Below, piece after piece: positions 5,451-23,734 of a DNA stretch of 27,947 nucleotides; within the stretch, counting starts at the first letter, position 1, and each line of letters begins with the position of its first letter. The position numbers were made by a program, and so were the translations under genes. The stretch covers positions 1 through 27,947 of the IMG/VR virus record IMGVR_UViG_3300032315_001044; one strand, 5' to 3'. Below the pieces are notes generated by a model. The model was not told the DNA's origin, did no database searches, and saw only the letters and a list, made by a program, of their open reading frames with translations. This DNA comes from a virus.

Positions 5451-5885
5451 TTAGTATTTCCAACGACGAATCTTATCATCCCTAAGATCAACGTGAATGA
5501 AGTTATTAGCAATACCAATTGATTTAAATTGCTTTTCTGCTATAGGTAATAGATTTAACGGTGTTAAACTAGAAACAGAAATATCAGCAGCATCACCTTT
5601 TTCGTGAGTGCTTTTTTTAGCTACTACTGTTGAAACCCCGCTCTTACGAATAGATTCTTGATGAGCCGAGCATCTAAAACCAGAAGTAATGCGCATAGGA
5701 CTTTTTGTATATTCGCGTATTACTGTTAAACGATTAATTAAGTCTACTGATATTTTTTGCTCAATGCACTCTTTATTAGTGCATTTGCACTCAAACTCTT
5801 TAGTTTTAAACCAATTATTGATCCAAACATTGTCACCCTTGTTCCAAATATAATAATTGTCTTGAATTTTAATAGTTTGACTCAT
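5451..5885 (-). CDS. Endolysin, M15-family peptidase
   Basis: The 144-aa protein matches the M15 zinc peptidase (L-Ala-D-Glu or D-Ala-D-Ala type) endolysin layout. A conserved SGFRCSAHQ segment (residues 68-76) precedes STHEKGDAADI (92-102), with zinc ligands H94 and D101, and FIHVD (129-133) gives the third ligand H131, followed by a basic end. The N-terminal part carries a Cys cluster C33, C35, C40. It would cleave peptidoglycan cross-link or stem peptides during lysis. I use the Met at 5885 (MSQTIKIQ), since the longer upstream frame starts inside the divergent promoter region. The only minus-strand gene of the right arm, it diverges from the holin-like gene. Confidence 0.85.
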   Translation of the reverse strand: MSQTIKIQDNYYIWNKGDNVWINNWFKTKEFECKCTNKECIEQKISVDLINRLTVIREYTKSPMRITSGFRCSAHQESIRKSGVSTVVAKKSTHEKGDAADISVSSLTPLNLLPIAEKQFKSIGIANNFIHVDLRDDKIRRWKY

Positions 5886-5886
5886 A

Positions 5887-5922
5887 TATATTAAGTTGTT
5901 AATTAACAACTGTATATAGAAA
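5887..5922. promoter_or_regulatory. Divergent promoter-like element built on a 16-bp palindrome, site C
   Basis: GTTGTTAATTAACAAC (5895-5910) is a perfect palindrome. Its right half begins the plus-strand element TTAACAACTGTATATAGAAA (5903-5922), pointing at the holin-like and packaging genes. Its left half gives TTAACAACTTAATATAT on the minus strand (from 5902), ending next to the endolysin ATG. Both halves match TTAACAACT; the minus-strand site lacks the ACTATA part. One sequence could therefore serve lysis and packaging transcription in opposite directions. Confidence 0.6.
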
Positions 5923-6013
5923 AGTGGTAACTTCAATGCCAACCGCCACATTAAGGCAAATAAAATCAGTGGCTTACGAAACCATCACTTTTTAATTTTA
6001 TTAAGGAAATATT

Positions 6014-21351: not shown

Positions 21352-23734
21352 ATGGCAAGTGCAAATACTTACGGTACTCCAAATAATACCGTTGGAACAT
21401 TGAATGGATTTTTTGGGTAGATCTTTGAAAAAGTGAGGTGAAACCCCTCCTAGTTGAATACCTTTAGTATTTGAGGTATGATGATACTAGAAAACCTTGT
21501 GAATTGCTGGAACCCCTAACGTAAAGTCGAGGGCAATCAGCAGCGAAGCCGTAAAATCGGAACGTTCACAGACTAGATAATTTAATAATCCAGATCACTT
21601 AGTGAGTAGGATATAAATGCTTAATAGAGATAAACGAAGTTTAGTTTTGTCATTGGTTTTAGGTGATGGTTGTTTGCATTATATTAAAAATAGAGGAAAA
21701 CTCTATGGTGGTTTAACAATAGACCACGGTTTAGAGCAAGCTGACTATCAGTCATGGAAAGCAAAATTGCTCTCTGATATTTTTCAAAGAGATGTTAAAA
21801 TGCGAAATGGTCATAAAGGCAAATCGGTGCAAGTATCGGTTTGTGAAAAAAGACTAAGGGCGTGGAGAAAGTTTTGTTATCCAAACGATAGAAAAAGTGT
21901 ACCTAAAATTTTAAAGTTTATTACAAATCCATATTTTGCTATAGCAGTGTGGTTAATGGATGATGGGTATGTTGAACCATCGTTTAGTAAACTAAAAAAT
22001 GGCGATAAAAAAAACTATGGGGCAAGATTTAGAATTTTTACAAATTCTCAAACATTAGAAGAAGTAGAAGAAATAAAAAAATGGTTTACTGATTTAGGAT
22101 TAGAACCAAAAATAAAACTTCACTCTGATAATGGTAAACAAGTTCCAATAATTAAATTTACACAAAAGGATAGTTTAATTATTTGGGAAAAAATAAGAGA
22201 GTTTGTTTTAACATTTAAATCAATGCAATATAAGTTTAGATATATTGAAGACATTTATAAATTAAAATTGTCACAAGCGCAAGGTAGTGATAAAATCACT
22301 AATGATATAGTCGATGCCTAAGTGAAGAATTTAGGAAAAGTAAAGAAAGAAACTTATGCAGATCGTTTAGCGGAATTGATTCCTGATGGGGTTAAACTCC
22401 TCAACAAAATCAAATTCATGTCTAAAGATAAGCAACCCGGTAATCTATACCATTAATGTTGGTGGTATTAAAATCTTCTCTAATTGACTTGAAACTCCTG
22501 AAGAGGACAACAAGGCGGAAGCAAAAAATGCACCGTGAGAGACTAAACGAGAAGACTACGAAAGTAGATGCGATAGTCCGACCTACAGATATAACCGAAT
22601 GAAGCTGTAGAGGATAGCAGAAATGTCTATCCCCCCAGAAATGGGAGTAACAATGGGCAACCAATCATCCTCGGTCTAGAACACGGCGTTACCTTCGCTG
22701 GTTCAGATGAAGATGCTTTCAATCTTCAAGCTCCAGTAGCAGGACAAGTCAAAGATGCTCAGGTGAAAGGCTCTCCAGCCGTTCTCCGTTCACTCCTTGG
22801 CTACGTTGCTGCTTCTCGTGCTGCTCTCGGTGGTCAAAAAGCGTTCATGGATGCTACTAAATTCCTAGTGGCAAACATGCTTCGCTCTATGGCTAAGAAG
22901 CTTGAAATCGAGATGCTCTATGGTCAGGTTGGTTATGCTGTTGTTGACTCCGCACTTGGTGCAGTCATCACCATTCAAACCGCTGAATGGGCACCTGGTA
23001 TCTGGGCAGGGGCAGAAGGAATGCCTATTGAAATTCGTGATCCTTCATCAGGTGCTTTAAAAGCATCCGTTAAGGTTCTTTCAGTAGACATGGCTGCTCA
23101 GACCGTTACCTGTGACTCTTCTGTTGCTGCTCTCATCGCTTCTGGCGATGTTATTTGGCACAAAGGGGCTTATGGAAACGAATTCGCTGGAATCCACAAG
23201 ATTCTAACCGTTTCTTCAGGTTCACTCTTCAACATCGACGTTCAAACTTACAACCTATTCCGTGGTAACAGTTATAGCGCAGCTTCAGCTGCTCTATCCT
23301 TCACCAAACTCGGACAGGCTGCAACCCGTGCTGTTGAAAAAGGTCAGGAAGGTACACTTCTTGCTCTAGTTAACGTTCGTTCTTGGCAGAACATGCTCAC
23401 CGATCAAGCTGCTCTACGCAAGTATGATCAGAGCTATAGTCCTGCTAAAATGGAAAACGGAGCTAAGTCTCTCAAGTTCCATTCACAGAACGGCGAAATC
23501 GAAATTGAGCCTTCACTCTATGTTAAACAGGGATATGCTTATCTCCTTAACGTAGAAGATTGGATGCGTGTTGGTTCTTGTGACATTACCTTCAAACGTC
23601 CAGGCCAAGGCGAAGAGTTCTTCCGCGATCTCGAAAACAGCGCAGCTTACGAGCTCCGCCTCTACACTGACCAAGCTTTGTTCTGCCAAGCTCCCGGTCG
23701 CAATACAATTATCACTGGTATTGTTAACTCATAA
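21352..23734 (+). CDS. Major capsid protein, gene split by two group I introns
   Basis: The coding sequence is the join of 21352-21414, 22346-22453 and 22658-23734, giving 415 aa. Exon 1 encodes 21 residues ending TLNGFF. Exon 2 encodes 36 residues starting KETYADRLAELIP and ending KQPGNLYH, and exon 3 continues QPIILGLEHGVTFAGSDEDA. The joins are phase 0, and the resulting line reads like other phage capsid proteins in this N-terminal region. Later segments include LGYVAASRAALGGQKAFMDA and SMAKKLEIEMLYG. A HK97-fold coat is expected. AAAGGA lies about ten bases before the ATG, and a terminator follows the stop. Unspliced RNA would give only a 22-residue peptide ending at the intron's TAG. 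Confidence 0.85.
21415..22345 (+). mobile_element. Group I intron 1 in the capsid gene, with endonuclease ORF
   Basis: The 931-nt intron has a clear guide. Exon 1 ends TTTTTT, which pairs with GAAAAA in the intron (P1, with the U-G at the splice site). The adjacent TCTTT pairs with the start of exon 2, AAAGA (P10). The core carries AATCAGCAG and AACGTTCACAGACTA (P3/P7 5' strand, GACTA at 21571-21575), and GATATAGTC (22304-22312) is the P7 3' strand. TTAGTGA (21599-21605) and TCACTAA (22296-22302) form P8. The intron ends in G (22345). The endonuclease gene sits between the P8 strands. Confidence 0.88.
21617..22321 (+). CDS. LAGLIDADG homing endonuclease in intron 1
   Basis: The 234-aa protein has two LAGLIDADG motifs: LSLVLGDGCL (residues 11-20, acidic D17) and AVWLMDDGYV (110-119, acidic D116). 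Between and after them lie the usual saddle strands, e.g. YGARFRIFTNSQTLEEVEEI and KQVPIIKFTQKDSLIIWEKI. It would cut intronless capsid alleles to promote intron homing. AGGA precedes the start by six bases. The last codons (KITNDIVDA) overlap the intron's P8 and P7 3' strands, so one sequence codes protein and ribozyme core. Confidence 0.88.
   Translation: MLNRDKRSLVLSLVLGDGCLHYIKNRGKLYGGLTIDHGLEQADYQSWKAKLLSDIFQRDVKMRNGHKGKSVQVSVCEKRLRAWRKFCYPNDRKSVPKILKFITNPYFAIAVWLMDDGYVEPSFSKLKNGDKKNYGARFRIFTNSQTLEEVEEIKKWFTDLGLEPKIKLHSDNGKQVPIIKFTQKDSLIIWEKIREFVLTFKSMQYKFRYIEDIYKLKLSQAQGSDKITNDIVDA
22454..22657 (+). ncRNA. Group I intron 2 in the capsid gene, 204 nt, no ORF
   Basis: Exon 2 ends ATACCAT, which pairs over seven bases with GTGGTAT in the intron (P1, U-G at the splice site). 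The adjacent GTTG pairs with CAAC, the first bases of exon 3 (P10). The core has GGACAACAAGGCGGAAGC, GAGAGACTA (P7 5' strand) and GCGATAGTCC (P7 3' strand), with P8 as a CTAC-GAAA-GTAG hairpin. P9-type hairpins include CTACAG/CTGTAG and GGATAG/CTATCC. The intron ends in G (22657), and removing it keeps the frame. It lacks an ORF and is close to minimal size. Confidence 0.82.

Follow-up and report, generated by a model that had tools for sequence, protein, structure and literature searches.

A tailed-phage major capsid gene split by two predicted self-splicing group I introns, in a gene segment that serves as a dense intron landing zone

Group I introns are a familiar class of intron; the route by which they reach new sites, and their pile-up in a few conserved genes, are debated. 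In crAss-like phages of the Zeta and Delta groups, capsid genes are split by group I introns, several of them per gene as in the locus described here, with five capsid ORF fragments in one Zeta genome (PMC7886860). However, these are unrelated gut phages with introns across many genes, whereas here a capsid stretch of 214 nt is concerned. The major capsid gene of mycobacteriophage LittleE (gp13) also contains an ORF-bearing group I intron, but only one, at nucleotide 496 (PMC11855218). Two or three group I introns per gene, with a small exon in between, have been described in Bastillevirinae and Twort, for which splicing was demonstrated in vitro; there the polymerase, terminase, thymidylate synthase and ribonucleotide-reductase genes are affected, and capsid genes are not mentioned (PMC11878797). 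The Jug phages contain approximately 18 short group I introns per genome, and metatranscriptome reads support 37 of their 76 predicted introns, but these are huge gut phages in which the examples given are split terL, nrdD and polymerase genes (PMC12363816). Many group I introns and insertion sites in one conserved gene are also known from fungal cox1, a mitochondrial and not a phage structural gene (PMC2814812; PMC2987802). Group I introns favour conserved positions (PMC2814812).

The sequence analysed here (the window) is the 27,947-nt virus record IMGVR_UViG_3300032315_001044 from an uncultured phage. It contains terminase and portal genes, with the capsid gene downstream of them. A minus-strand gene for an M15-type peptidase, likely a lysin, was seen at 5451-5951 and a GP88-like gene at 751-1386, the region otherwise being mostly plus-strand. 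The joined capsid protein matches phrog_14242, a major head protein (E 3e-10, residues 13-403), and its closest relative in the annotated phage collection, the only one there, is from a Silvanigrella phage (31% identity). We consider it very probable that two self-splicing group I introns, the first of them most likely mobile by homing, divide the major capsid gene of a tailed phage here, and that its 5' quarter acts as a landing zone for introns of this kind. Splicing is predicted from the sequence: each intron would fold after transcription, its guide pairing with the end of the upstream exon (P1) and the start of the downstream exon (P10), and two guanosine-started transesterifications would excise it, giving an mRNA for a coat protein of 415 aa. 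The features are listed in Table 1.

Table 1. Positions of the capsid exons, introns, pairing strands and endonuclease genes in the window
Feature	Start	End	Strand	Remarks
Capsid exon 1	21352	21414	+	63 nt, 21 codons; closely preceded by a ribosome-binding motif, GGAAA
Intron 1 P1, exon side	21409	21414	+	TTTTTT
Group I intron 1	21415	22345	+	931 nt, after codon 21; RF00028 37.3 bits, E 1.4e-7; same-site homologues L020, L039
Intron 1 P10 strand	21422	21426	+	TCTTT; pairs with exon 2 AAAGA 22346-22350
Intron 1 internal guide	21427	21432	+	GAAAAA; U.G at splice site
Intron 1 P7 5' strand	21571	21575	+	GACTA; partner TAGTC 22308-22312; conserved in L020, L039
Intron 1 ORF, LAGLIDADG_2 homing endonuclease	21617	22321	+	234 aa; PF03161 E 1.7e-16
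Capsid exon 2	22346	22453	+	108 nt, 36 codons
Intron 2 P1, exon side	22447	22453	+	ATACCAT
Group I intron 2	22454	22657	+	204 nt, without ORF, after codon 57; covariance model, covariation, minimum free energy
Intron 2 P10 strand	22458	22461	+	GTTG; pairs with exon 3 CAAC 22658-22661
Intron 2 internal guide	22462	22468	+	GTGGTAT; P1 with U.G at splice site
Intron 2 P3 5' strand	22474	22480	+	TCTTCTC; partner GAGAAGA 22549-22555; compensatory change in 5/7 pairs
Intron 2 P7 5' strand	22541	22545	+	GACTA; partner TAGTC 22574-22578; relatives GACTG/CAGTC, GACTT/AAGTC
Capsid exon 3 including stop	22658	23734	+	codons 58-415
Free-standing homing-endonuclease gene	23836	25263	+	475 aa, directly after capsid stop; phrog_3339 E 5.5e-95

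The boundaries were determined by spliced alignment to 11 uninterrupted relatives, allowing introns at any place and in any phase, with no preference for splice letters. All four window boundaries were reproduced exactly by 10 of the 11 references; with the remaining one, the distant L070, intron 1 was exact and intron 2 was shifted. The boundaries did not change when U/G borders were penalised in the alignment. A U precedes each of the two introns and a G is the last base of each. Both joins are in phase 0, and the residues at the joins (FF-KE and YH-QP) are continuous in intron-free relatives (NGFFKETYAD and GNLYHQPVILG). The two group I introns proposed in the initial annotation, with their exact splice points, phase-0 joins and a single restored coat protein, were borne out by these alignments and by the structural tests for group I introns described below. 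Translation of the window also located the stop that, as had been claimed, ends the unspliced product from 21352 after 22 residues.

The P1 and P10 pairings were as the initial annotation had given them, and guides and exon ends co-vary in relatives with an intron at the same site. P1 of intron 1 consists of U-A pairs and the U.G only. At site 21 (sites are given as window codon and phase) the exon end and guide were TTTTTT/GAAAAA, GATGTTT/GAACATC and CCTCTTT/GAAGAGG, including the homologues of intron 1 in L020 and L039, and at site 57 they were TACCAT/GTGGTA and TTCCAT/GTGGAA. P10 co-varied at site 57 as well (CAAC/GTTG versus CAGC/GCTG). For 46 introns the median P1 score with the own guide was 14.5, against 4.5 for swaps with introns of other sites, which reached 14.5 in only 0.3% of the swaps. 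The predicted P1 pairings are evidence independent of the alignment-derived boundaries.

Relatives of the capsid gene were collected by scanning viral and genome contigs, with a first search seeded on codons 94-415 only; this gave 93 non-redundant capsid loci and 91 usable genes, including the window. The presence of introns was patchy: 46 introns were found in 24 genes (one in ten genes, two in seven, three in six and four in one) and 67 of the 91 genes were uninterrupted. These introns occupy 18 distinct sites, all located in codons 21-92 of 415, within a coding stretch of 214 nt: 21.0, 24.1, 34.0, 49.0, 53.0, 54.2, 55.1, 57.0, 59.0, 59.2, 61.2, 63.0, 67.0, 67.2, 77.1, 79.2, 86.0 and 92.2. 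None of the 91 genes had an intron beyond codon 92, though the search seed of codons 94-415 would expose later interruptions. Two genes that were added later, L288 and L327, have introns at sites 55, 57 and 59. In the relatives, homology alone set most boundaries to within 1 nt, and the rule of a U before the intron and a G at its end was used as a tie-breaker, so that their perfect U/G score is not evidence; for L092 and L136, the 3' ends of the introns carry more uncertainty. First-exon introns in L015, L024, L083 and L128 and matches in L052 and L151 were rejected as alignment artefacts. Intron model matches in the located virus records fall in the capsid gene. With intron model R1, 19 of 32 records had a match; the nine virus records without capsid introns that were searched, each of 30-96 kb, had none.

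Codons 21-92 are approximately the most conserved stretch of 72 codons (0.675, versus 0.60 for codons 94-415). Conservation alone was rejected as the cause of the clustering, since shorter stretches that are equally conserved (126-150 and 376-400) hold no intron. Judging from the genes compared, group I introns in this phage group have a recurrent and dense landing zone in the 5' quarter of the gene. The initial annotation had regarded two group I introns in a short 5' part of a capsid gene as unusual. This holds only in part: multi-intron phage capsid genes have already been published and the window alone belongs to a known type, but the clustering in the gene family is far denser than the window shows. 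In a limited literature search we found no published account of so dense a hotspot, nor of this capsid family.

Coding pieces between introns are as short as 12-30 nt in the relatives, the shortest internal exons being 12 nt (L080), 13 nt (L067), 14 and 18 nt (L009) and 16 nt (L199). We regard it as unlikely that the introns of the window splice and also regulate, with in-frame skipping of exon 2 yielding a coat variant of 379 aa. The length of exon 2 is indeed a multiple of three, and Twort orf142 and phage SIOphi are reported cases of exon skipping by group I introns (PMC11878797). However, P10 of intron 1 pairs with exon 2 and not with exon 3, many internal exons of the relatives have lengths not divisible by three (43, 14, 29, 61, 16, 13 and 62 nt), so that there is no sign of a frame being kept, and the most conserved stretch of the protein is encoded in part by exon 2.

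Over codons 121-415, the window and its two closest relatives, L001 and L002, have 90-96% DNA identity, and their joined proteins are identical over about the first 112-115 residues compared. Their intron sets are disjoint: sites 21 and 57 in the window, 49, 59 and 67 in L001, and 63 and 77.1 in L002. Between the window and L001 there are 79 nucleotide differences, 37 of which lie in codons 11-70, where none changes an amino acid, indicating purifying selection on this zone. The clustering of these differences is suggestive of a replacement of codons 11-70 from another lineage. In a codon-aligned survey of all pairs, genes that share an intron site were not more similar in their exons, so that co-conversion of flanking exons is suggested for the pair of window and L001 only. 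It is very improbable that these are degenerate insertions in a dead capsid gene whose role is taken by a different coat gene or by a start inside exon 3. An internal GTG ORF does span codons 94-415 (22763-23734), but neither exon 1 nor exon 2 is damaged and both agree with the relatives that lack introns, P1 and P10 fit the local exons, and the first 115 residues are the same as in L001 and L002 despite DNA differences, which argues for purifying selection.

The initial annotation had proposed a search with the group I model RF00028 on the introns of this capsid gene. This search gave 37.3 bits for intron 1 and 16.1 bits (E 0.31) for intron 2, with E-values over all 4227 Rfam families. Both scores are below the gathering cut-off of 50 bits, which is a curation cut-off and not a structural feature, although intron 1 is significant by its E-value. 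A default Rfam scan at the gathering threshold returned neither intron, and a permissive scan returned both. Introns in the same gene of relatives reach 50-81 bits, and those in L001, L006, L007 and L141 exceed the cut-off. Staphylococcus and Felix-O1-like phages have introns similar to the core of intron 1. The P3 pairing of intron 1 is poorly defined in the RF00028 alignment; its P7 strands are conserved across three homologues, and the 3' strand of P7 overlaps the 3' end of the endonuclease ORF.

With a covariance model built from the relatives, the window left out, intron 2 scored 175.5 bits (E 4.7e-35). Covariation was tested on a group I core drawn by hand, using 11 introns without an ORF from capsid genes of this family. 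In the core from P3 to P9.1, 96.5% of the cells were paired, versus 76.1% in shuffles; none of 500 shuffles matched this core, and 31-43% were paired in slid controls. Two-sided (compensatory) change was seen in 29 of the 41 core pairs, and the P3/P7 group I core of intron 2 is thereby backed by covariation. The minimum free energy is -56 kcal/mol (z -4.2), and the minimum-energy fold alone gives P1, P3-P6, P8, P9 and P9.1. Only the low Rfam scores would speak for inteins, group II introns or elements of another type, and these can practically be dismissed, as in-frame stops rule out inteins, no Rfam family besides group I was significant, and the P3-P7 group I core shows covariation.

The ORF in intron 1 contains two motifs, LVLGDG and LMDDG; its product is presumably an active LAGLIDADG endonuclease, which most likely copies the intron into intron-free alleles (homing). 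Intron 2 most likely derives from an endonuclease-carrying form, because the site 57 introns of L012, L019, L028 and L136 contain GIY-YIG-like ORFs (a GIY-YIG domain in L012 and similar ORFs in the other three). Among the 46 introns, 30 are long and 16 are shorter than 300 nt. The long introns contain LAGLIDADG_2, GIY-YIG or HNH endonuclease ORFs, varying by site, and at some sites forms with and without an ORF occur, which fits gain and loss of endonuclease ORFs. A 502-nt intron in L039 (4424-4925) has a GIY-YIG ORF of 106 aa, about half the size of the same-site ORFs elsewhere; this looks like an endonuclease gene that is being lost. At site 55.1 in L092 (3582-5040), a 1459-nt intron seemingly contains two endonuclease ORFs, GIY-YIG and LAGLIDADG. 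Ten relatives likewise have the free-standing endonuclease gene downstream of the capsid gene, and in six of these (L001, L002, L008, L027, L039 and L082) the capsid gene has introns. This gene, which is not part of an intron, could assist the mobility of introns that, like intron 2, lack an ORF.

In a tree of 123 introns of the intron-2 type, one clade (support 0.82) consists exclusively of the introns of sites 57 and 63, which lie 18 nt from each other, and a single additional intron, itself the site 57 intron of L327. This suggests a move of an intron between the two sites. The introns L009:4063-4927 and L003:4079-4925 have 75% identity over 823 nt, the endonuclease ORF included; their sites, 67.2 and 67.0, are separated by only 2 nt and the guides differ accordingly, which may reflect a small shift of the insertion site. 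A single local radiation of all capsid introns was rejected, since the site 59 intron of L067 and the site 61 introns group with introns of other phages. In addition, the site-67 type is similar to Streptococcus phage introns, and at the DNA level capsid introns resemble introns from phages of S. thermophilus and Staphylococcus.

A pattern search on RNA sequence only found the intron-2 type in at least 120 stretches. The survey of flanking ORFs comprised 99 ORFs among the matches listed, with most loci of the own capsid family left out; these ORFs are neighbours and not proven exons. Among the matches listed, 22 of the 99 have their match in phrog_283 and 13 in phrog_1357, two families of major head proteins; endonucleases account for many of the others. 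Portal and scaffold ORFs were also seen near the intron-2 type among the matches listed (L211-L330). The clade of sites 57 and 63, together with the 35 of 99 flanking ORFs, among the matches listed, in two other head-protein families, led us to the tentative idea that the 5' quarter of phage capsid genes might be a niche for one group I lineage, which would re-target its guide within the gene and spread between unrelated capsid families.

The gene family with its dense landing zone is more interesting than the window alone. One short coding stretch combines 18 occupied sites, related introns at neighbouring sites, three endonuclease superfamilies and intron-free alleles, and its exons of 12-30 nt test the minimum size of an exon between group I introns. 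For environmental phages it is a warning that standard gene calling, and Rfam at its default cut-off, can miss or truncate capsid genes.
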